Shown: piece by piece, positions 1-11,494 of the stretch
How the letters are laid out: every line of letters begins with the position of its first letter
How positions within the stretch are numbered: the stretch's first letter is position 1
Source of the DNA: Deltaproteobacteria bacterium
Lineage (GTDB): Bacteria; JAUYMQ01
NCBI GenBank assembly: GCA_030698575.1
Contig: JAUYMQ010000625.1
Span: 1 to 14,937, forward strand
Direction of reading: 5' to 3'
DNA: 14,937 nucleotides
Translations under genes and position numbers: made by a program
The notes under the pieces: generated by a model
Seen by the model: only the letters and a program-made list of their open reading frames with translations
What the model was told of the DNA's origin: nothing
The model's database searches: none

Positions 1-169
1 CGTAGGCTGACGACATGCCGTTCTTGTTCTTGTAGAGCCAGTTTCCGCCCACCTCGTCGCTCTTCTCGAAGCAGTCGAAGGGGATGCCCCGATCCTTGAG
101 CGCCTTGATGATCGTGATTCCGGACGAGCCCGCCCCTATCACGCAGACCTTGGGATAGTTCGGTGCCAT
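1..169 (-). CDS. Flavin-containing monooxygenase-like NAD(P)/FAD oxidoreductase, N-terminal part (runs off window)
   Basis: Only the first 56 codons are inside the window. The peptide opens [18 protein letters not shown], a GxGxxG Rossmann fold for the FAD ADP moiety at residues 11-17. An acidic/aromatic strand end ([13 protein letters not shown], about residues 34-46) follows, typical of flavin-containing and Baeyer-Villiger-type monooxygenases. Such enzymes use NADPH and O2 to oxygenate a soft nucleophile or a ketone; the substrate cannot be read from this fragment. The start is supported by GGTGGAG ending 7 nt upstream. The gene lies 30 nt downstream of an acyl-CoA dehydrogenase on the same strand, so it is probably the fourth gene of the tetR-led operon. 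The class is fairly safe; monooxygenase versus another two-dinucleotide-binding flavoprotein would be settled by the missing C-terminal part. Confidence 0.8.
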
Positions 170-199: not shown

Positions 200-1441
200 T
201 CAGGAAAGAGCTTTAGAGGAGTAGTCGAGCAGGCGGCGTGCAACGATGAGCAGGTTGATCTGCTGCGTTCCCTCGTAGAGATCGGTGATCTTCGCGTCCC
301 GCATCCATTTCTCGAAGAGGTGCTTCTGCGAGTAGCCGAGCGGGCCGAGAATCTCGACCGCCTTCTGGGTCACCTTCGTGGTGACCGAGCCGGCCTTGGC
401 CTTGGCCATCGAGGCCTCGAGGGCGTTATGACGCCGCTCGTCCATCATCCACGCCGAGCGGTAAGTTAGCAAGCGGGCCGCCTGGACCTGGGCCTCCATG
501 TCGATCACGTCCCGCTCGATGGCGGTCAGCTCGTGATCCGGGGCGTCGTATCGGATCTCGATCCCCTCTTTCTCCAGGATCTCCTTCAGGCCGTCGAGGG
601 CCGCCTGCGCCACGCCCACGCCGCTCGCGGCAACAGCCGGACGCGATGCGTCGAAGGTCGCCATGGCGCCCTTGAAGCCCGCCGTCCCGCTGCTCTGCAC
701 GACCTCCGCCGAGCCCAGGATGTTCTCGATGGGAATGCGGCAGTTGTCGAAAACGATCGGGGCCGTGTCGTTGGCCCGGATGCCGAGCTTGTCCTCGACC
801 CCGAGGACCTTCATGCCGGGCGTGCCCGCCTCGACCACGAAGCTCTTGATCCCCGCGCGGCCGGCGTTCTTGTCCAGCGTGGCCCAGACGACGAGGATGC
901 CCGGCGACTCCTGCGCCGCCATGAGCCCGCTCGTGACGAAAATCTTCGTGCCGTTCAGCACCCATTCGTCGCCGTCGCGCACTGCCGTGGTGGCCACCTG
1001 TGAGGTATCGGATCCGAAGTGCGGCTCGGTGATCGCCATCGCGCCCCACTTGGGCTCTCCCTCGGTGAAGCGCTTCAGAAAACGCTCCTTCTGCTCCGGG
1101 GTGCCCACGGCCTCGATGGCGAAGCCCGCCAGCCCCGCGTTCGGCGTGCAGAGGTAGATGCCCGCGTCGCCCCAGGCCAGCTCCTCGATGATGGTCACCA
1201 TCTGCATGTTGCCTTCGCGGGGCCCGTCGGCCTTCTTTTCTTTCTTTTCCTTCTTGGCCGCGGCGGCGGACTCCGTGCCCCGGGCCTTCACCGATTCCCA
1301 CATGAAGTTGATGTGGTCCCACGGCTTCTCGGCATCGTGGTGATCGCACTGCCGGGCAACGGGGCGGATCTGGTTCTCGGCAACCATGTGCAGCAGGTTG
1401 CGCATATTCTCGAGGGCAGCGCTCGGCTTGAAGCTGATCAT
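200..1441 (-). CDS. Acyl-CoA dehydrogenase, subunit retaining the catalytic Glu
   Basis: The 413-residue flavoprotein should make the alpha,beta-double bond in an acyl-CoA thioester and pass electrons to ETF. It keeps the front FAD motifs AITEPHFGSD (136-145) and KIFVTSG (166-172). It also keeps the C-terminal DLYEGTQQI with the expected catalytic base at Glu390. Two things are odd. The usual helix-B stretch (LGLxGxxxPEEYGG) is missing and replaced by an Ala/Lys/Glu-rich linker (residues 59-70, AAAAKKEKKEKK). The RxxFG motif that normally reaches across the dimer to FAD is absent around residues 284-301. The preceding ACAD gene keeps RxxFG but lacks the motifs kept here, so the two probably form one enzyme. 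Start: AGGAGA lies 5-6 nt upstream of ATG. It is 68 nt after the preceding ACAD gene and 30 nt before the monooxygenase gene. The family is certain; the substrate is unknown. Confidence 0.93.
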   Translation of the reverse strand: MISFKPSAALENMRNLLHMVAENQIRPVARQCDHHDAEKPWDHINFMWESVKARGTESAAAAKKEKKEKKADGPREGNMQMVTIIEELAWGDAGIYLCTPNAGLAGFAIEAVGTPEQKERFLKRFTEGEPKWGAMAITEPHFGSDTSQVATTAVRDGDEWVLNGTKIFVTSGLMAAQESPGILVVWATLDKNAGRAGIKSFVVEAGTPGMKVLGVEDKLGIRANDTAPIVFDNCRIPIENILGSAEVVQSSGTAGFKGAMATFDASRPAVAASGVGVAQAALDGLKEILEKEGIEIRYDAPDHELTAIERDVIDMEAQVQAARLLTYRSAWMMDERRHNALEASMAKAKAGSVTTKVTQKAVEILGPLGYSQKHLFEKWMRDAKITDLYEGTQQINLLIVARRLLDYSSKALS

Positions 1442-1509
1442 GTCAGTCTCCTGCTTTTTGAAGTTGCGACTGGCGCCGGGTTCCGGACCCGGCCGCCGCG
1501 CCGGCCATG

Positions 1510-2604
1510 TCAGACGAAAGTCATGAGATCGAGCGTCGACAACCCCCGCGCGTTGCGAAGGTGCTGCTCGACCAGGTGCTCGCGGATGTAGCCGTGGCCG
1601 CCGAGGACCTGAACGGCGCAGTCGGTCACCCGGAGCGCCGTGTCGGCCACGGTGCGGCGCGCCAGCGTCACCTCACGCGAGGCGTCCAGTCCCTCGTCAA
1701 TCCGCCAGGCGGCTTCCCAGACGAGCAGGCGCGCGGCATCGACGTCGATCGCCATCTCGGCGAGCATGAAGGCAATGGCCTGCTTGGTCGCGATGGGAAC
1801 CCCGAAGGCGGTGCGCTCCTTCGCGTACTCCTTCGAGTAGTCCAGCGCCGCGCGGGCCACGCCGACACCCATGGCCGCCAGCCCCACGCGCGAGCGGTCG
1901 AGCAGGAGCCGGAAGTCGCACCCCTTCTCGCCCCCCAGGCGGTCGGCGGCGCTCACCCGGACGCCGGCGAGCGCGATCTCGGCGGTCGGAAGCGCGAGCA
2001 AGCCCATATTTCGTTCACCCGCTTCGATCGTCAGTCCCGCGGCGTCGCGGGGAACGAAGAATCCCTGCACGCCATCACCCTCGCTTGCGAAGACGAGGAT
2101 CGGGGTCTCGCCCGCGAGCACCGGCACGAAGCACTTGCGCCCTTCGAGAACGTACCCGTCACCTTCACGCTTGGCGGTCGTGGCGGGACGGCGCGGATCG
2201 AACCGGAAGCTCGGCTCGACGAAAGCTGCCGACCCCGGCGCGAAGCGCTCCTCCACGAAGGGGGCGAGGTGCTTCGTCTTCTGCGCGTCGGTTCCCGCCA
2301 GAACGAGCGGCGTCGCGTGCAGGCCGGGGGAGAGGATGGCTATTGCCAGCGCCAGATCGCCGTAGGCGAGTTCCTCGGCGACCAGCGCACCCGTGACGGC
2401 CGAAGCGTTCTCGCCGCCGCCCCCGTACTGCTCGGGGATATTGGTCATGACGAGCCCCAGTGAGTTGGCGGAATCGAGGATCGCCTGGGGTATGGCGCCC
2501 GCTTGATCGCAAGGGCGCGCCTGGGGGCGCACTTCCTTTTCGACCAGGCGGCTTACCGCCTCGACGATGGCCTTTTGCTCGTCGCTTGGCTCAAAAGAAA
2601 TCAT
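1510..2604 (-). CDS. Acyl-CoA dehydrogenase-like subunit lacking the catalytic Glu
   Basis: The 364-residue protein has the ACAD fold: N-terminal helices, IPEQYGGGG (56-64), a beta domain, ERTAFG (263-268) and QVLGGHGY (332-339). It ends at STLDLMTFV, where catalytic ACADs continue with YEGT, so the usual catalytic Glu is missing. The alternative helix-G Glu of isovaleryl-CoA dehydrogenase is also absent (LLLDRSRVG, 233-241). The front FAD motif TEPxAGSD is degenerate (FVEPSFRFD, 128-136), and the W/F-x-T-S motif reads CFVPV. It is therefore unlikely to work alone, but it can supply the cross-dimer FAD contacts that the next ACAD has lost. The ATG at 2604 was chosen over one 36 codons upstream because AAGGAG precedes it by 7 nt and it forms an ATGA overlap with the tetR stop, suggesting translational coupling. 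Family membership is clear; the heteromer role is inference. Confidence 0.9.
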   Translation of the reverse strand: MISFEPSDEQKAIVEAVSRLVEKEVRPQARPCDQAGAIPQAILDSANSLGLVMTNIPEQYGGGGENASAVTGALVAEELAYGDLALAIAILSPGLHATPLVLAGTDAQKTKHLAPFVEERFAPGSAAFVEPSFRFDPRRPATTAKREGDGYVLEGRKCFVPVLAGETPILVFASEGDGVQGFFVPRDAAGLTIEAGERNMGLLALPTAEIALAGVRVSAADRLGGEKGCDFRLLLDRSRVGLAAMGVGVARAALDYSKEYAKERTAFGVPIATKQAIAFMLAEMAIDVDAARLLVWEAAWRIDEGLDASREVTLARRTVADTALRVTDCAVQVLGGHGYIREHLVEQHLRNARGLSTLDLMTFV

Positions 2605-3287
2605 CTGACCGCTCCTTCTGCGGATGGGGGAACACGCTTTCCGCCGCGCGCCATGTTGATGGGGCGACGGATGAGTCCCTGGAGTGACGTGAGCTGAACG
2701 CGGTAGATCCATTCGGCCGGCCGGCCGAAGACCTTCGCTTGCGCGAGGGAACTGTAGTTTCCCACGTAGATCCAGGCCGCGATCTCGGCATCGACCTCGG
2801 CCCGGATTGAACCCTCGGTGATGCCCCGGCGGATCGTCTTCTCGACGCGCTGGGCCATCTCGGTGACATTCGATTCGATGACTTGCCGGAGGGACGGATC
2901 GAGCAGCGCCGCGCCCTGATCGAGGAGGAGCCGCGCATACTCGGGGTGTCGCTCGAGCTCGGCGGCGAAGGCGACGGCGTAGTCGACGAGAACATCGAGC
3001 GCTTCCTTCCGGGCCTTTTCGATGCGATCGAAAATGGAGCGGAAGTGCGCCCCGAGCCGCTCGATGACCGCAAGATTGAGCGCGCGCTTGTCGGGGAAGT
3101 ACTTGAAGACGGTGGCTTCGGAAACGCCGGCCTCTTCGGCCACCGTAGCCGCCGAGGCGGCCTGCGCGCCCGCTTTGGCGATCACGTGGAAGGCGCAGTC
3201 GAGAAGCTGCGCGCGGCGCTTGTCCGGTTCCAGGCGCGCGGCCCGGCGGCGCAGGGTGCCGCCGCGCCGGTTGTTCGCTCGGGCCAT
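2601..3287 (-). CDS. TetR-family transcriptional regulator
   Basis: The 228-residue protein has an N-terminal TetR DNA-binding domain. The helix-turn-helix spans roughly residues 44-63 (SAATVAEEAGVSEATVFKYF), followed by PDKRAL and a helical ligand-binding domain with no recognisable signature. The N terminus is unusually basic (RANNRRGGTLRRRAARL). The start at 3287 was preferred over one 16 codons upstream because AGGAGG precedes it by 5 nt, and because the longer version would begin inside the promoter/operator. The gene ends in an ATGA overlap with the first ACAD gene and leads the operon, so it most likely represses itself and the ACAD and monooxygenase genes, with an acyl-CoA or related substrate as inducer. 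That role is inferred from position and from the habits of TetR regulators of fatty-acid catabolism. The ligand is not known. Confidence 0.93.
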   Translation of the reverse strand: MARANNRRGGTLRRRAARLEPDKRRAQLLDCAFHVIAKAGAQAASAATVAEEAGVSEATVFKYFPDKRALNLAVIERLGAHFRSIFDRIEKARKEALDVLVDYAVAFAAELERHPEYARLLLDQGAALLDPSLRQVIESNVTEMAQRVEKTIRRGITEGSIRAEVDAEIAAWIYVGNYSSLAQAKVFGRPAEWIYRVQLTSLQGLIRRPINMARGGKRVPPSAEGAVR

Positions 3288-3533: not shown

Positions 3534-3887
3534 TCAGCCGATGTTCGCGAGAGCGAAAACGGTAAGGCCCGTTCCGAGGAACGCGACGCCGTAGAAGATG
3601 AAGGCCACCAGGCCCGGGGCCTCGAGCCCCAGATCGGAAACGACGTGCTTGAGCCGGTGCCCCGCGTGGAATAGCGAGAGCGAAATGAGCGCCAGGAGGT
3701 AGAGCTTCGCGATCGGGTGAGAGAGCAGCTCGACCATGCGCCCGTAGCTCGTGGCGCTTTCCGGCAGCCAGCCCAGCTGCATGGCCAGCCCCTGGAAGAA
3801 CACGTGCCCCGGCAGGAAGATCGCGGACATCATCCCGCCTGCCGAGAACAGAAGCCACCAGAAAGATTCAGTCTTCTGTGCAGCCAT
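3534..3887 (-). CDS. frdD: Fumarate reductase membrane anchor subunit D
   Basis: The 117-residue hydrophobic protein has about three membrane spans (around 10-34, 58-76 and 91-113). It shows FrdD hallmarks: FWWLLFSAGGMMSAIFLP near the N terminus and FHAGHRLKHVVSDLGL at 73-88, matching the His-rich HRxxH segment next to the quinone site of E. coli FrdD. With FrdC it anchors the catalytic FrdAB dimer to the cytoplasmic membrane and binds menaquinol or quinone. It is last in frdABCD, 6 nt after frdC. Its Shine-Dalgarno GGAGG is made from the last Gly codons of frdC, so the two are probably co-translated. The length is close to the roughly 119 residues usual for the family. Confidence 0.92.
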   Translation of the reverse strand: MAAQKTESFWWLLFSAGGMMSAIFLPGHVFFQGLAMQLGWLPESATSYGRMVELLSHPIAKLYLLALISLSLFHAGHRLKHVVSDLGLEAPGLVAFIFYGVAFLGTGLTVFALANIG

Positions 3888-3893
3888 TTTCGT

Positions 3894-4316
3894 TCACCCT
3901 CCGAGCGAGAAGTAGCCGATCACCGCCGCCACGGCGACGACAAGTCCCATGTTGCCCAGCACGAACATGGACGGCGGGACCTCGAATTTTCCAATGCGCA
4001 TGGGCGACACGACGGCGCCGGCCTGGAACCATGTAATCGAGTGAAAAAGCACGAAGAAGAGGGCGAAGAGCGAGCCGATGGCAAGCGCGACCGAATTCGT
4101 GGCGCCCGCCAGCCAGGCGTTCCAGGCCGCCTCGCCCTTCGAAATCGCGATGAGCCCCTGCAGTAGCCTCATGGCGAACAGCAGGACGAAGAGGGCCGTG
4201 AATTCGCGCACCATGAAGAGCAGGTAGGGGCGCTTCTTGGTCCACCAGAGCTCGGGGTAGGGCTTGATGTAGTCCTTGTAACCGGGCTCGGGAACGCGGT
4301 AGTCCTTTGCGCTCAT
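3894..4316 (-). CDS. frdC: Fumarate reductase membrane anchor subunit C
   Basis: The 140-residue protein has three predicted membrane helices (about 31-54, 72-93 and 116-137). FMVREFTAL (34-42) aligns with the R-E pair of E. coli FrdC. FHSITWFQ (91-98) aligns with its LHTKTWFE, so the quinone-site His (H92) and Trp (W96) are kept. WW at 24-25 also matches the family N terminus. The start at 4316 follows GGGGAG by 5 nt. An in-frame upstream ATG would overlap frdB and has no support. The anchor has no obvious heme-ligand pattern, consistent with a heme-free E. coli-type complex. It lies 13 nt after frdB. Confidence 0.92.
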   Translation of the reverse strand: MSAKDYRVPEPGYKDYIKPYPELWWTKKRPYLLFMVREFTALFVLLFAMRLLQGLIAISKGEAAWNAWLAGATNSVALAIGSLFALFFVLFHSITWFQAGAVVSPMRIGKFEVPPSMFVLGNMGLVVAVAAVIGYFSLGG

Positions 4317-4329
4317 TGCTTCTCCCCTC

Positions 4330-5076
4330 TCATCGGGACGACCCTCGCGGAAGAATGAAAGACTTGATCTTGTCGAGGACGTTCGCGAGCTTCTCGCGCT
4401 GAATGGCCGCCGCGGGATCCACGTGCTTCGGGCAGACCTCGCTGCACTCGCCAACGAAGGTGCATTCCCACACGCCCTCGCCGCTGCCGATGATCTTGTT
4501 GCGCTCGGCCCGCGCGCCGTCGCGGCTGTCCTCATTGTAGCGATGGCCGAGGGCGATAGCCGCCGGGCCGAGGAAGTCTTGGTGCTTGCCGTAAACCGGG
4601 CAGGCGGCATAGCAGAGCATGCAGTTGATGCACATGGAGAACTGCCGGTAGGCCTCGAGCTGGCGCGGCGTCTGAAGGTACTCGCCCTCGTCGATCGACT
4701 TCTCTTCCTTGGGGATGAGCCAGGGCTTCACCCGCTTCAGCTTCTCCATGAAGTCGCTCATGTTGACGACGAGATCCCGCATGATGGGGAAGTTCGCCAG
4801 AGGCTCAACGGTGATGTCGCCCTCGAAGTCGCGAAGGAACGTGGCGCAGGTGAGCTTGGGCACGCCGTTCACGTTCATTCCGCAGCTACCGCAAACCCCC
4901 ATCCGGCAGGACCAGCGGTAGGTGAGTGTTCCGTCCTGCTGGTCCTTGATGTGGTTCAGGGCGTCGAGAACGACGGTGTCGTCGTCATAGGGGACCTCGT
5001 AGGTCTGCGTCCGCGGCGCCGAATCGGTTTCGGGGTTGTAACGCGTGACGGTCAGCTTCTTCATCTTATCGCTCAT
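4330..5076 (-). CDS. frdB: Fumarate reductase/succinate dehydrogenase iron-sulfur subunit
   Basis: The 248-residue protein carries the electron wire between FrdA flavin and quinone. The N-terminal plant-type ferredoxin domain holds the [2Fe-2S] ligands C57, C62, C65 and C77 (SCRMGVCGSCG and LTCATF). The C-terminal helical domain has CINCMLCYAACP with C149, C152, C155 and C159, then C205, C211 and C215 (WECTFVGECSEVCPKHVDP). By family rules C149, C152, C155 and C215 bind [4Fe-4S], and C159, C205 and C211 bind [3Fe-4S]. All ligands are present. The start codon shares its A with the frdA stop (TGATG), indicating translational coupling; GAGGAG lies 11 nt upstream. Confidence 0.97.
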   Translation of the reverse strand: MSDKMKKLTVTRYNPETDSAPRTQTYEVPYDDDTVVLDALNHIKDQQDGTLTYRWSCRMGVCGSCGMNVNGVPKLTCATFLRDFEGDITVEPLANFPIMRDLVVNMSDFMEKLKRVKPWLIPKEEKSIDEGEYLQTPRQLEAYRQFSMCINCMLCYAACPVYGKHQDFLGPAAIALGHRYNEDSRDGARAERNKIIGSGEGVWECTFVGECSEVCPKHVDPAAAIQREKLANVLDKIKSFILPRGSSR

Positions 5077-6797
5077 CAGTACTTGCGCTCCTCGGGCTGC
5101 CAGCGGGTGATCGTGGCCGGGCGGTATTCGAGGCGCGGCCCGTCCTCCGTCCGGTGGGCGATCGTGTGTGTCAGGAACTGCTGATCGTTCCGCCCCTTGT
5201 GGTCCCTGCGCTGGTGCGCCCCGCGGGATTCCGTTCGCCTGAGCGCACCCTCGGCCATGGCCAGCGCGATGTCGAGCATGAAGTCCAGCTCGATAGCCGC
5301 CGTGAGGTCGGTGTTGAAGACCCGATTGCGGTCGTCGATGCTGATCCTGCCATAGCGCTCGCGAAGCGTCAGAAGCTTGTCGCGCGCGGCCTGGATCGTC
5401 TCGCCGTTCCGGTAGACGCCGCAGCCTTTCTCCATGGCGTCCTGCATTTCATGGCGGATGGTCGCGATGCGCTCGCCGTTCTTGTGATCCTGGAGGTAGG
5501 TCCGCTCGATGCGGGCCCACTCGTCGCGAGCAATCGATTCCGGCGCAGGGCTGCTGTCCGAGCCTCCCTGCCTCACGTACTGCGCCGCATGCTTGCCGGC
5601 CCAGGCGCCGAAGACGAGGCACTCGGTGAGGGAGTTCGATCCGAGCCGGTTGGCGCCGTTGATCGAGACGCAGGCAACCTCGCCGGCGGCATAGAGCCCC
5701 CGCAGGGGCGTTGCGCCGTTTATGTCGGTATCGATGCCGCCCATGCAGTAGTGGACCACGGGGCGGATGGGGATCGGCTGCTTCACAGGATCGATACCGA
5801 CGTATTTCGTGGCCAGCTCGCGCACGAACGGGAGCCGCTCGTTGATCTTCTTTTCGCCCAGATGGGTGAGGTCCAGATGCACGTACTGGCCGTGCTTGCC
5901 TTCGAAGGCGCGTCCCGCTTCCATTTCCTCGATGATCGCGCGAGAGAGGAGATCGCGCGGCCCCAGCTCCATCTTTGTAGGCACGTAGTTGCTGAGGAAC
6001 CGGTCTCCCTCCTTGTTGAAGAGGTAGCCGCCCTCGGCGCGCGATGCTTCGGTGATGAGGATGCCGGTGCCCGGCAATCCCGTCGGATGATACTGAACAA
6101 ACTCCATGTCCTTCAACGGCACACCGGCGCGGTAGGCCATCGCCATTCCGTCGCCGGTCTTGATGGAGGCGTTCGTGGTGAAGGGGAACACCTTGCCTGC
6201 GCCCCCCGTGCAGATGATGACCGCGCGGCCGTAGATGGGCAGAAGCTTGCCGCTGTGCAGATCGATCGCCGTGACGCCCCGGACGGCTCCGTCGTGCACG
6301 ATCAGCGAAGTTACGAACTGCTCGTCGTAGCGCACGATGCGATCGTACTTGAGGGAGGTCTGGAACAGGGCGTGGAGCATGTGAAAGCCGGTTTTGTCGG
6401 CGGCGAAGAGCGTGCGCGGCGTGCTCATCCCTCCGAACGTGCGGGTGGCCACCCGCCCGTCGGGATCGCGGCTCCAGGGACAGCCCCAGTGCTCCAGCTG
6501 GAGAAGCTCACGGGGAGCTTCCTTCACGAAGGCCTCGACCGCGTCCTGGTCGGAGATGAAATCGCTTCCCTTGATTGTGTCGAAGGCGTGCAGATCGAAG
6601 CTGTCGTTCTCCGTCTTGACCACGCCCGCCGCGCCGCCCTCGGCGGAGACGGTGTGGCTGCGCATGGGGTAGACCTTCGAAACCATTGCGACGGTGAGCT
6701 TCGGGTCGGCCTCGACCGCGGCGATGGCGGCGCGAATGCCGGCGCCGCCGCCCCCTACCAGCACAATGTCGTGTACGACGGGATCGGTCAGGGACAT
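5076..6797 (-). CDS. frdA: Fumarate reductase/succinate dehydrogenase flavoprotein subunit
   Basis: The 573-residue catalytic subunit interconverts fumarate and succinate with covalently bound FAD. GGGGAG (15-20) begins the Rossmann fold. H48 in [10 protein letters not shown] is the expected 8-alpha-histidyl FAD site. Active-site residues are present: H237 (YHPTG), R281 (ELGPRD, the proton-shuttle Arg), H349 (VVHYCMGG) and R384 ([10 protein letters not shown]). The sequence around 231-392 is close to E. coli FrdA but lacks about 11 residues before ELGPRD, and overall it is some 30 residues shorter. Start: GGAGGTGA, a near-perfect Shine-Dalgarno, lies 5 nt upstream. It opens frdABCD. Because no other complex II is visible, it could run as succinate:quinone oxidoreductase aerobically as well; direction cannot be decided from sequence. 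Confidence 0.97.
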
Positions 6798-7081: not shown

Positions 7082-7918
7082 TCAAGGGCAGCCGGTGTCG
7101 TTGCCGCAGAGGTTCTTGCCGAGCTGATCCGGATCGCCGACGCCCTGAGAACTCACGTTGGTATTGTTGTCGGTCACGATGTTCTCCAGGTAGCCGGAGT
7201 TGTCGGCGATGAAGAGGCCGATGATGTTTCCCGTGAGCACATTCCCGGCCACGAAGCATTGCTCTCCAGCCGAAGTTCCCGGGCCGCCGTTGCCAGAGGC
7301 GGTGTTGTGGGTGAGGCGGCTGGAATCCCCGCCGGCGATTCCGAAGTCGTCGTTCCGGATGGCCTGGCAATAGGTAACCGCGCTGTTCCCGCCCACCCCG
7401 ATGCCGCCCTCGCCGTTCTCCTCCGCCCTGATCCGCTCCACGCGCGCTGCATCGCCGAGCCGGAGGCCATGGCCCGGCATGCCCCGGATGGTTCCGTCCA
7501 CCACGGTCGTGTTCTTCACGCACCCCTCGCCGGCGCAGGCGTCGACGCCGCTCCCCCCCTCCACCTCACCGGACGGATCGCAATCGTCGACGGGGCTTCC
7601 CGTGCAGCTTCCCGGGCCGATGATGCTGAAGCCGTTCATGTTGAGGCTGACGTTGTCGGCGGCGATCTGGATGGCGTCGGTGTCCGCCGTCGCCAGGGGA
7701 TCGATCGTGAGGTCGAGGTTCGTGACGAGCACGTAGGCGCCCGGCTCGAGGATGACAATCGGGAAGAGGGACTCCGAGGTTTTCTTGTTCTTCTGGAGAT
7801 CCTGCCCGATCTGGACCGGGCCGTCGTTTTTCTTGCCGGCGAGCGCGGGCGAGGTCGTGAGTATGAGTGCCGCGAGGGTCGCCAGGGCGATCTTCGTTAT
7901 TCGCTGAAACTTCCGCAT
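7082..7918 (-). CDS. Secreted right-handed parallel beta-helix repeat protein
   Basis: The 278-residue protein starts with a clear Sec signal peptide: MRKFQRITK, a hydrophobic core, then SPALA before GKK (cleavage near residue 28). The mature part has short repeats with regular Gly/Asn turns, such as VSLNMNGFSI, TTVVDGTIRGMPGHGL, GEGGIGVGGNSAVTYC and NVLTGNIIGLFIADNSGYLEN. This is the pattern of right-handed beta-helix proteins (NosD/pectate-lyase-like, Beta_helix family). About eight Cys in the exported part, including a pair near the C terminus (NLCGNDTGC), may form disulfides. No catalytic motif of a polysaccharide lyase is evident, so the function is unknown; carbohydrate binding or a surface/periplasmic role is possible. 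The start at 7918 was chosen for GGAGGTGG upstream and because the signal peptide begins there; a start 41 codons earlier would bury it. It looks monocistronic. Confidence 0.85.
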   Translation of the reverse strand: MRKFQRITKIALATLAALILTTSPALAGKKNDGPVQIGQDLQKNKKTSESLFPIVILEPGAYVLVTNLDLTIDPLATADTDAIQIAADNVSLNMNGFSIIGPGSCTGSPVDDCDPSGEVEGGSGVDACAGEGCVKNTTVVDGTIRGMPGHGLRLGDAARVERIRAEENGEGGIGVGGNSAVTYCQAIRNDDFGIAGGDSSRLTHNTASGNGGPGTSAGEQCFVAGNVLTGNIIGLFIADNSGYLENIVTDNNTNVSSQGVGDPDQLGKNLCGNDTGCP

Positions 7919-8242
7919 GCCTTCCACCTCCGAAATCTCTGATCGGTCTTCTCTCGCGCGGAGCGAGGAGCAGAGTGCTGGATTGTCGGGGGGGGATTTA
8001 TTTACGGGGTATTTCGAGTTGCCGGACGCCGAGACTCCCACGCGGAGTCCGGAGTGTCAATGACGGGAACGCCCCGGATCAACCTGCCACAACGCCTCGT
8101 GGCATCCAGGGGGCAGGGCACAACATCTTCCACAGGGCCTCAAGGCGGGATCCTTCATGGCGGGAACAGTCTAAAAATGCTTGACTCGGCGCGTCGGCGC
8201 GGCATGATGGCCCGACCAAGCTTCCCCCCCGAGAGGGAAGCC
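7919..8242. other. Divergent intergenic region (324 bp), no gene seen
   Basis: The gap lies between the beta-helix gene (leftward) and the first small membrane peptide gene (rightward). It holds an AT-rich patch beside a G tract near 7988-8014 (ATTTATTTACGGGGTATTT). It also holds an inverted repeat GACTCC-CACGC-GGAGTC at 8033-8049, a small hairpin TGCCAC-N8-GTGGCA at 8085-8104, and the candidate promoter at 8181-8208. I found no convincing promoter for the beta-helix gene. Confidence 0.5.
8181..8208 (+). promoter_or_regulatory. Candidate promoter of the first small membrane peptide gene
   Basis: TTGACT (8181-8186) is followed after 16 nt by CATGAT (8203-8208), 34 nt before the start codon. 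The match to sigma70 boxes is 5/6 and 4/6. The same arrangement, with identical spacer length and TTGAC/CAT cores, recurs before the paralogous gene at 8447-8474, which raises confidence. Confidence 0.55.
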
Positions 8243-8765: not shown

Positions 8766-9263
8766 TCAAACGGATTCAAGCAGCTCGTCTGCGGCTGATT
8801 CGACGTCGGCATCGTCCGTGATGCTCTTCACGCGGCGAAGGGCCTTGGCCAGCGCATCGCGGTCGACGCTTCCGGCGCGGGCCATCGGCGCGAGCGCGTC
8901 GAGCGCGCGAAGAACGATCTCGGCGTTCTCGTGGTCGAGGAATAGCAGGAGCAGATCACCCGAGGCGGGGAAACCGCTTTTCTCGATGTAAGCGTCGCAA
9001 GCCTCCGAGAAGCCCCGGGTGCCGCGCGCGTCGCGCACAGCGCTCTCGGCCGCGCCGCCGGACCTCTTCTTCGAGCCGCCGAAGAGCTTCTGGTCGAGCT
9101 TCTTGAGATAGGCATCCTTGGCCGCCTTCGAGGTCTCCCGCTCCTTCTCCGTCCGGGGCTCGCGCGGCCCCTCACGGGCGCCATGGGCGCTCCTGTCCCG
9201 CTTCTTGTCCATCTCCCGCCAGCTCGGGCGGTCGTGGCGATCCATGTCTTCACGTTTGGGCAT
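8766..9263 (-). CDS. Hypothetical charged protein with helical C-terminal domain
   Basis: I do not recognise this 165-residue protein. Residues 1-80 are rich in Arg, Lys, Asp and Glu (MPKREDMDRHDRPSWREMDK) and probably disordered. Residues 84-163 are predicted helical, with alternating hydrophobic positions (SGDLLLLFLDHENAEIVLRA, then further Leu/Ala-rich helices), resembling a pair of HEAT/ARM-like units. There is no signal peptide, membrane span or Cys. The Lys/Arg-rich tail could bind nucleic acid or a membrane surface, but nothing proves it. It lies 59 nt after the molybdoenzyme gene on the same strand with no terminator between, so they may be co-transcribed. The ATG at 9263 lacks a good Shine-Dalgarno; another at 9245 is possible. 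Confidence 0.7.
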   Translation of the reverse strand: MPKREDMDRHDRPSWREMDKKRDRSAHGAREGPREPRTEKERETSKAAKDAYLKKLDQKLFGGSKKRSGGAAESAVRDARGTRGFSEACDAYIEKSGFPASGDLLLLFLDHENAEIVLRALDALAPMARAGSVDRDALAKALRRVKSITDDADVESAADELLESV

Positions 9264-9322: not shown

Positions 9323-9718
9323 TCAGGCGGGCCGCACCTCGACAGGGACGCCGTTCATGATCGAGGCCGAGGCGAGAGGCTCGGCCACTTTCTCATCGAT
9401 GAGATCGTTGATGTTCACGCCGGGGTTCGCTGACGCGACGCTGAGATCCGCCCCCTCCCGGTCGTGCCCCCAGCCGTGGGGAAGGCTCACCACGCCGGGC
9501 ATGACCGCGTCGGTCACGCGCACGCGTGTGCGCAGCGAGCCCACGCGGCTGGAGATGACGGCGTTCGCGCCGTCAGCGATGCCGAGGCTCTCGGCATCGC
9601 CGGGATGCACGAAGAGATCGCAGCTGCGCCCCCCCTTCATGAGCGAGGGGGCGTTGTGCATCCAGGAGTTGTTCGTGCGGATCTCGCGGCGCCCTATGAG
9701 GCGAAGCCAGCCGTCGTC
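9323..9718 (-). pseudogene. C-terminal part of the molybdopterin oxidoreductase, cut off by an in-frame TAG
   Basis: After the TAG at 9721-9719 the same frame stays open for 131 further codons to a TGA at 9323. The translation continues DDGWLRLIGRREIRTNNSWM, then LFVHPGDAESLGIADG and GVVSLPHGWGHD. These are hallmarks of the molybdopterin-dinucleotide-binding C-terminal domain of the DMSO-reductase family. It is the missing end of the enzyme at 9719-11494, not a separate gene. An ATG at 9661 could start a 112-residue product but has no convincing ribosome-binding site and would lose the first domain strand. Apart from the single stop, there is no frameshift or decay. Confidence 0.85.
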
Positions 9719-11494
9719 CTACTCGTGCAGCGCCTCGCGCATTCGCGCGACGTCGCCCACGAGCACCTCGTGCGCCACCCGGATGCGGTTGTCGGGGAGC
9801 CGCACCTTCCGCGCCCGGCCCCCGGGGCGCATGGGACCCAGATCGATGCCGTGGGGCGACTGCTTGATCTTGTCCAGGGTGAGTCCGTCCGGGTTGGCCC
9901 CGAACTGCTCGCCGTAGGTTCCCGTCCGCACGAGAACGTCCACCATCCGCTCCGGCGTGATCGGCTCATCCCCGGCGGAAGAGCCGTTGATCAGATCCCT
10001 GAGGCCGTGCGGCACGAGCTCGAGACCCATCGCGCGGCAAAGATCGTCGAAAATCACCCATTCCTCGCGCTGCTCCGGGCCCGGCTCGAAGACCTTGGGC
10101 GACCACTGGACGTAGTTGCGGACGCTCAGGTTCCCGAAGATGATATCCATGTGATTGCGCTCGAAGGCGAACACACCCGGCAGGATGATGTCGGCGTGAC
10201 GCGTGGTCTCGTTCCGGTAGATGTCGATCGAGACCATGAAATCGAGCTTCTCGAAGGCCTCCGACAGGCGCTTTCCGTTCGGCGCCGAGAGGATCGGATT
10301 GCCCGCGATCGTGATGAGCGCGTGGTGCTGCCCTTCGCCCGGCGTCTCGATCTCGTCGGCGAGCGTCGAGCAGGGAAGCTCGCCGGAGACCTTCGGGAGC
10401 CCGTTGATGCGGCTCCGCCACTTCCCGTAGTTCGGCGAGCTGAGCCCGCCCAGCTGCGTGCCGGGATCAATCGGATACTCCGGGAACATCAGCCCGCCTT
10501 CCCGATCGAAGTTCCCCGTCACGATGTTCATCAGCTCAACAAACCAGTGCGTCAGCGTGGCGAAGGGGACGAGGCTGATCCCGACGCGTCCGTAGGCGAC
10601 CGCCGAGGGGGCGGCTGCGTATTCGCGCGCGATGCGGCGGATGGTGTCCGCGTCGATGCCGACCTTCGGCGCGACGGCCTCGGGCGTGAAGGGCTCCAGC
10701 AGCTCGGGGATGACGTGCCAGCCGCCGTCGGTGATCTCGTCGAGAAGTTCGGTCTTCCAGGCGCCGTCCTTCCAGAGCGTCCGCAACATGGCGGCCACAA
10801 GCCAGCCGTCGCCGCCCGGGCGGACGAAGTGGTGCTCGCCGCCCCGCTTCAGGACCTCCATGGCGGTTTCGGTGCGGCGAGGGTCGATCACCACCACCTT
10901 GCCGCCCCGCTCGCTGACCTCGCGGAGCCTTCGATGCAGATCCGGCGCCGTCATGATGCTGCCGTTCGATGCAGCCGGGTTGGCGCCGAGCATCAGGAAA
11001 TAGTCAGTTCGATCGACGTCGGGAACGGGGAGGGCGCCGTAAGCGCCGTAGAGCAGGAAGGAGGTCAGTAGCCGCGCGTTCGTGTCCTGGGAATTGGCGC
11101 TGTAGATCGACCGGGTGCCGAGCGCCTTCAGGAACAGCGCACCGAAGAGCGACATGCCGAGCGCGTGCACATTTGGATTGCCGAGGTAGACGCCGATGGC
11201 GCTGGGCCCGAATTTCTCCCGAACCGCGCCAAGCCGATCGGCCGTCTCGCGGATGGCCTCCTCGTAGGAAATCTCGCTCCAGCCGCCGCCCCGGGTCCGG
11301 CGGAGCGGCTTGCGGAGCCGGTCCGGGTCGTGGTGAATGTCGCGCATGGCGGCGCCCTTCACGCACATGTAGCCCCGCGAGAAGGGGTTCTGCGGATCCG
11401 ATCGGATGGCCTTGATGGTCTGGCCCTCGGTCTCGACCTCGAGGCCGCAGATCGCCTCGCACATGGAGCATGCGCGGTGGTGGATGTCGGGCAT
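9719..11494 (-). CDS. Molybdopterin oxidoreductase (BisC/DMSO-reductase family), truncated by an amber codon
   Basis: The 591 residues before the stop hold the N-terminal [4Fe-4S] domain (C9, C12, C16, C44; RACSMCEAICG and GYMCVKG) and the central molybdopterin domain. That domain has ANPAASNGS, GGKVVVIDPRRTETA and YRNETTRHADIILPG. The C-terminal Molydop_binding domain follows in the same frame after TAG, for about 723 residues in total, a normal family length. No Tat or Sec signal is seen, so the enzyme is probably cytoplasmic. Where NapA-type enzymes use Cys as Mo ligand, the segment YSANSQD (131-137) has none. The substrate is unknown: COG0243 enzymes include formate dehydrogenases, assimilatory nitrate reductases and thio- or S-oxide reductases. 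Start: GGAGGAGA lies 6 nt upstream of ATG. Without its C-terminal domain the product should be inactive, unless the stop is read through or is an assembly error. Confidence 0.9.
   Translation of the reverse strand: MPDIHHRACSMCEAICGLEVETEGQTIKAIRSDPQNPFSRGYMCVKGAAMRDIHHDPDRLRKPLRRTRGGGWSEISYEEAIRETADRLGAVREKFGPSAIGVYLGNPNVHALGMSLFGALFLKALGTRSIYSANSQDTNARLLTSFLLYGAYGALPVPDVDRTDYFLMLGANPAASNGSIMTAPDLHRRLREVSERGGKVVVIDPRRTETAMEVLKRGGEHHFVRPGGDGWLVAAMLRTLWKDGAWKTELLDEITDGGWHVIPELLEPFTPEAVAPKVGIDADTIRRIAREYAAAPSAVAYGRVGISLVPFATLTHWFVELMNIVTGNFDREGGLMFPEYPIDPGTQLGGLSSPNYGKWRSRINGLPKVSGELPCSTLADEIETPGEGQHHALITIAGNPILSAPNGKRLSEAFEKLDFMVSIDIYRNETTRHADIILPGVFAFERNHMDIIFGNLSVRNYVQWSPKVFEPGPEQREEWVIFDDLCRAMGLELVPHGLRDLINGSSAGDEPITPERMVDVLVRTGTYGEQFGANPDGLTLDKIKQSPHGIDLGPMRPGGRARKVRLPDNRIRVAHEVLVGDVARMREALHE

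Follow-up and report, generated by a model that had tools for sequence, protein, structure and literature searches.

A neighbouring pair of acyl-CoA dehydrogenase genes with complementary motif losses as a probable heteromeric enzyme of the FadE23/FadE24 lineage

The 14,937-nt window analysed here, a contig from a Deltaproteobacteria bacterium (JAUYMQ010000625.1), carries two adjacent genes that most annotation pipelines would call separate acyl-coenzyme A (acyl-CoA) dehydrogenases (ACADs), which raises the question of whether they encode two enzymes or one. Both are on the minus strand, with B (1510..2604; 364 amino acids, aa) followed by A (200..1441; 413 aa) after a spacing of 68 nt, and each product has the Pfam ACAD N, middle and C domains. 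Motifs, homologues, trees and AlphaFold2 (AF2) models identify A as a FadE23-like alpha-type subunit with a flavin cradle, substrate site and catalytic Glu390, and B as a FadE24-like beta-type subunit that would hold the adenosine diphosphate (ADP) part of the flavin adenine dinucleotide (FAD) of the neighbouring alpha. We propose, with a probability of about 0.85, that A and B form a heteromeric FAD-dependent ACAD of the FadE23/FadE24 lineage, most likely alpha2beta2, in which each heterodimer would have a single composite FAD site and neither protein should function alone. The basis for this is complementary motif conservation, gene pairing and phylogeny; the placement of FAD and the alpha2beta2 stoichiometry would follow by homology with the solved ChsE4-ChsE5 and ChsE1-ChsE2 enzymes.

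Aligned with 1ukw and other ACADs, A retains TEPHFGSD (residues 138-145, T138 to D145; 1007..1030, minus strand), KIFVTSG, in which IFVTSG (residues 167-172; 926..943, minus) includes the flavin Thr170, and LYEGT with the catalytic Glu390 in YEGT (codon at 272..274, minus). At the cross-dimer sites it has EIRYDAP where ERxxFG is expected, with no RxxFG, and at the ADP-binding Gln/Gly site E363-ILGPLGY is found where QxxGGxG is expected. The place where a PEEYGG loop usually sits is taken by a variable Lys/Glu-rich linker (residues about 50-78; 1208..1294, minus). Homologues were drawn from one scan of an 84,980-species genome collection, from which the 80 best B homologues (47-56% identity) were kept, so that only the nearest relatives are represented. 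Among 70 complete alpha homologues TEPxxGSD is present in 69, the Thr and EGT in all 70, and GGxG in none. A preliminary description of this DNA had reported TEPxxGSD, IFVTSG and Glu390 in the downstream ACAD together with the lack of RxxFG, all of which is borne out by the alignment and these homologues; it had overlooked both the loss of the Gln/Gly ADP-binding set and the replacement of the loop. Across the alphas a gap-rich, often Lys/Glu-rich stretch of 12-44 residues replaces the P-E-YGG-type loop, which the betas retain. The linker of A is predicted to be disordered at residues 56-72, where pLDDT (AF2 confidence) falls below 50; these are residues 55-71 of the model, which begins at residue 2 and is hence offset by one.

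The pattern in B is the complement. It retains ERTAFG (residues 263-268, with the cross-dimer FAD-binding Arg264 and Phe267; 1801..1818, minus), the Gln following it, and QVLGGHGY (residues 332-339; 1588..1611, minus), and its flavin-cradle positions are occupied by VEPSFRFDP and KCFVPVL, with CFVPV for the T-S motif; EPSFRFDP (residues 130-137; 2194..2217, minus) is the remnant at the lost TEPxxGSD position. In 81 beta homologues there is no TEPxxGSD and no Thr or Ser at the flavin Thr position (0/81 for each), and Arg264, Gln275, Gln332 and the glycines G335, G336 and G338 are each present in 81/81, with the QxLGGxG motif in 80. These counts agree with what had been described for the upstream ACAD, except that B had been thought to end before the YEGT Glu. 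This is wrong, as the chain stops five residues past that column, the last 15 residues (tail RGLSTLDLMTFV) align across it, and Asp359 (1528..1530, minus) lies in it. The column is not conserved in the homologues (D 27, E 25, L 11, plus others, among the 81), and since it is unconstrained rather than absent, the main argument for a non-catalytic beta is that its flavin cradle is lost.

In the solved alpha2beta2 ACADs the isoalloxazine, the Glu and the substrate site are in alpha and the ADP-ribose is bound by beta (PMC10925408), and the motifs of the window pair are divided exactly as these roles are. By homology, alpha would hold the isoalloxazine, bind the acyl-CoA and provide the base Glu390, and beta would contribute only the arm that holds the ADP, consisting of Arg264, Phe267, Gln275, Gln332 and G335-G338. 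The reciprocal site, with flavin in beta and ADP in alpha, is lost on both sides, so that there would be one FAD site per heterodimer and two per tetramer. The AF2 monomer models of A (mean pLDDT 85.2, predicted template modelling score, pTM, 0.86) and B (91.6 and 0.92) find their best matches in structures of the medium- and short-chain ACAD (MCAD/SCAD) type, 1ukw first, and these models confirm that both proteins keep the ACAD fold. No solved structure of this lineage is among the structure matches, and for both profiles the solved relatives with the highest scores are of the homomeric type. A canonical homomeric ACAD is rejected, as neither chain has both the flavin-cradle and the cross-dimer ADP motifs.

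Pairing of the two genes is a consistent property of the relatives. An A homologue lies directly downstream of B on the same strand in 77 of 80 loci, and the other three are limited by contig ends (L071 and L077 run off, and L067 has 0.7 kb left). The gap between beta and alpha has a median of 26 nt and is at most 100 nt in 62/76, and the same beta-alpha order is found in Nocardia, Tsukamurella and Rhodococcus records and in Acinetobacter baumannii. Alpha and beta distances are correlated (r = 0.79, 77 pairs), although shared descent alone could also yield this correlation. The earlier suggestion of an alpha2beta2 enzyme with one composite site per heterodimer thereby gains support, by inference, from the motifs, the adjacency, the correlated distances and the orthology to FadE23-FadE24. 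Where there is enough flank, a FadB-like fusion gene is downstream of the pair in 18/51 loci, a thiolase gene in 11/51, and a TetR gene upstream in 19/60, neighbours that suggest a role in acyl-CoA beta-oxidation.

The 80 best B homologues are from Chloroflexota, Binatota, bins labelled Deltaproteobacteria or Proteobacteria, Vicinamibacteria and HR30, and the lineage as a whole ranges over Chloroflexota, Binatota, Acidobacteriota, Myxococcota-like bins, Actinomycetota and Acinetobacter. Uncultivated Chloroflexota and Binatota are the main carriers found in this comparison, and the spread of the FadE23/FadE24 pairing, known from mycobacteria, is far wider than the mycobacterial literature implies. 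The window genome is the sole representative of its phylum in the collection, so its relatives are drawn from other phyla and it belongs to a deep, rarely sampled lineage.

Three genomes from a single phylum (G033, G068 and G069) show a different arrangement, with one adjacent pair each and, respectively, 1, 1 and 2 extra alphas. These four lone alphas, recognized by matches of 670-679 bits (L110:3125-4534, L111:3136-4413, L112:3089-4411 and L113:3117-4421, all minus strand), have no other ACAD for about 3 kb in either direction and likewise lack the RxxFG and GGxG features. Each genome encodes exactly one beta of the lineage (577-590 bits; next matches at most 349), and a natural reading is that several alphas would share a single beta. 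The check proposed earlier, that homologues should always be neighbours, holds in the 77 loci above and fails for these lone alphas; homologues that are usually unpaired were not found.

How do A and B relate to the heteromeric ACADs of steroid catabolism? In trees of 38 and 66 rows, for which the sampling is small and some branches are long, the alphas and betas of this lineage form sister clades (98/95 and 96/77, respectively), which include the actinobacterial pairs, Acinetobacter and a second pair from the window genome and lie near the homomeric-type 1ukw and C286. The beta clade including the actinobacterial pairs has support of 100/98, and the alpha clade 100/99. The ChsE4 and Tcur3483 alphas cluster with PimC-like alphas (100/100), beside PimD-like betas, elsewhere in the tree. 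Approximately unbiased (AU) tests of a single origin gave moderate p values of 0.0207 for all alphas together, 0.0177 for all betas and 0.0203 for all heteromeric subunits. Differences are also evident at the catalytic base. The window alpha has FDASR and YEGT where ChsE4 and Tcur3483 have LNHER and FGGG; HER on helix G is present in ChsE4, Tcur3483 and the PimC-like alphas, and is absent from the window lineage, in which EGT is near-invariant. By analogy with long-chain ACAD and isovaleryl-CoA dehydrogenase (taken from PMC10925408), the helix G Glu is apparently the base in the former group. Membership of the window pair in the ChsE/PimCD lineage is rejected by the trees, the AU tests and the base position. 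The preliminary description had appealed to the FadE/ChsE pairs, an analogy that holds for the mechanism and not for the closest kin.

Because the clades are separate, a single origin is rejected and the base position differs, the split site probably evolved twice. We consider it somewhat more probable than the converse that the ACAD site was split on two or more occasions, starting from different homomeric ancestors, with one split in the FadE23/24 type and another in the ChsE/PimCD type, and that several alpha isozymes may share one beta in at least one genome group. As judged from sequence, the FadE23/24 type would be distinguished by a base at the MCAD position, a disordered charged linker in alpha and a distribution over several phyla. 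A new result is that the two subunits of this lineage group as sister clades and stand away from the ChsE/PimCD heteromers; no published statement of a double origin was found in the literature covered, which did not include the main mycobacterial papers. The little-studied FadE23/FadE24 type seems to have arrived independently at the split-site arrangement familiar from steroid catabolism and, if so, is a natural replicate on which the evolution of half-site heteromers can be studied.

The window genome, with some 33 ACAD matches, also encodes further split ACADs. A second pair of the same lineage, on contig C323 (L085:642-3383), is less derived, and its beta has a full-length C-terminus (LSGTDEAQNLLIADAIM), so the C-terminal truncation of beta probably came later than the split. 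Two other heteromeric pairs are of the PimCD/steroid type (L086 on contig C424 and L087 on contig C646), giving at least four split ACADs in this organism. Five single ACADs of the same genome retain both TEPxxGSD-type and RxxFG motifs.

Several points weigh against a heteromeric dehydrogenase with a single composite site. An acidic residue is present at the beta Glu column in 52/81 homologues, and strict co-location is not universal, because the four lone alphas lack a neighbouring beta. PMC11980559 also attributes to FadE23-FadE24, with reference to its own sources, an activity different from acyl-CoA dehydrogenation. A composite-FAD heteromer that catalyses something other than ordinary alpha,beta-dehydrogenation of acyl-CoA, for example in the reductive direction, would accommodate the last of these; NCBIfam has no model for the family, and its best profile is acryloyl-CoA reductase, far below the cut-off. 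We regard such a reaction as unlikely, given that hardly any variation is seen at Glu390 or in the flavin cradle as a whole and that FadB-like and thiolase genes follow the pair in relatives.

The lone alphas could instead indicate that alpha works by itself as a homo-oligomer, with an ADP arm remodelled as [RP]YGxP and ExxGPxGYS, and that beta is a paralogue that is inactive or serves in regulation. Alpha does have conserved residues of its own at the lost sites (R297 in 58/77, Y298 in 67/77, E363 in 66/77 and P367 in 70/77 homologues). However, Arg297 is missing from the actinobacterial and Acinetobacter alphas, the genomes with lone alphas encode a beta too, and the invariance in all 81 betas of the cross-dimer Arg, both Gln and three Gly would be needless in a regulator that does not bind FAD, all of which makes this explanation quite improbable. 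Still less credible is that A and B are separate ACADs, each with a substrate of its own, whose only link is a common operon. Neighbouring ACAD genes are common in genomes as rich in them as this one, but here roughly half of the canonical FAD site is missing from each protein, the two losses complement each other in the same way in essentially every homologue examined, and the genes are co-linear across several phyla. Pseudogene decay or assembly error, which the fragmented source assembly (653 contigs) might bring to mind, is refuted as the source of the motif losses by their conservation in some 80 homologues and by a beta C-terminus that falls at the same residue in 80/81. Chance is likewise rejected as their cause by this conservation.

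The immediate neighbours of the window pair are a regulator and a monooxygenase only. A TetR-family gene (2601..3287, minus; Pfam) lies upstream of B, and its stop codon overlaps the beta start as ATGA, so the two are probably in one operon. Directly downstream of A is the start of an FMO-like flavin monooxygenase gene (1..169, minus; PF00743), interrupted by the end of the window and contig. Farther away, a complex II operon (3534-6797, minus) encodes a flavoprotein, an iron-sulfur protein and fumarate-reductase-type C and D anchors (PF02300 and PF02313). A molybdopterin oxidoreductase gene (9323-11494, minus) is broken at 9719-9721 by an in-frame TAG, after which the same frame runs on into a molybdopterin dinucleotide-binding domain (PF01568) at 9323-9661; the TAG may be a nonsense mutation, an assembly error, a split gene or a site of readthrough, all of which are compatible with the sequence. 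Pfam searches gave no match for open reading frames at 7082-8041 (319 aa) and 8766-9263 (165 aa), both minus.

Compared with homomeric MCAD/SCAD-type ACADs (1ukw and 5ol2_C), the window pair shares the fold, the position of the base (that of MCAD Glu376) and, with both subunits combined, all of the motifs; the homomeric enzymes have both motif sets in each chain, whereas here they are split over two genes. ChsE4-ChsE5 (FadE26-FadE27), ChsE1-ChsE2, Tcur3481-Tcur3483 and PimC-PimD resemble the pair in having flavin and base in alpha, the ADP arm in beta and adjacent genes, and differ in their separate tree lineage, an alpha that retains the P-EYGG loop, and a base apparently on helix G with GGG at the YEGT site. 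The closest comparison is with FadE23-FadE24 (Rv3140-Rv3139) and its actinobacterial orthologues. In both annotated actinobacterial records (Tsukamurella and Rhodococcus) hisN is upstream of the pair, and impC (Rv3137) of Mycobacterium tuberculosis we take to be a hisN-type gene. The M. tuberculosis gene order is impC-pflA-fadE24-fadE23-fadB4 (PMC2834668), and it is by this hisN synteny of the actinobacterial pairs that the assignment to FadE23/24 is made, the M. tuberculosis sequences themselves being outside the trees. In PMC11980559, FadE23-FadE24 is treated as a complex, with citation of the alpha2beta2 FadE family paper (Wipperman 2013). These pairs and that of the window have in common the beta-alpha order, complementary motif sets, membership of the same pair of sister clades and a lipid or beta-oxidation context. 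They differ in the length of beta, which in the actinobacteria reaches about 458-478 aa through roughly 100 additional N-terminal residues (364 aa in the window), and in their neighbours, which are hisN, pflA and fadB4 on the actinobacterial side, TetR and FMO in the window, and FadB and thiolase in Chloroflexota.
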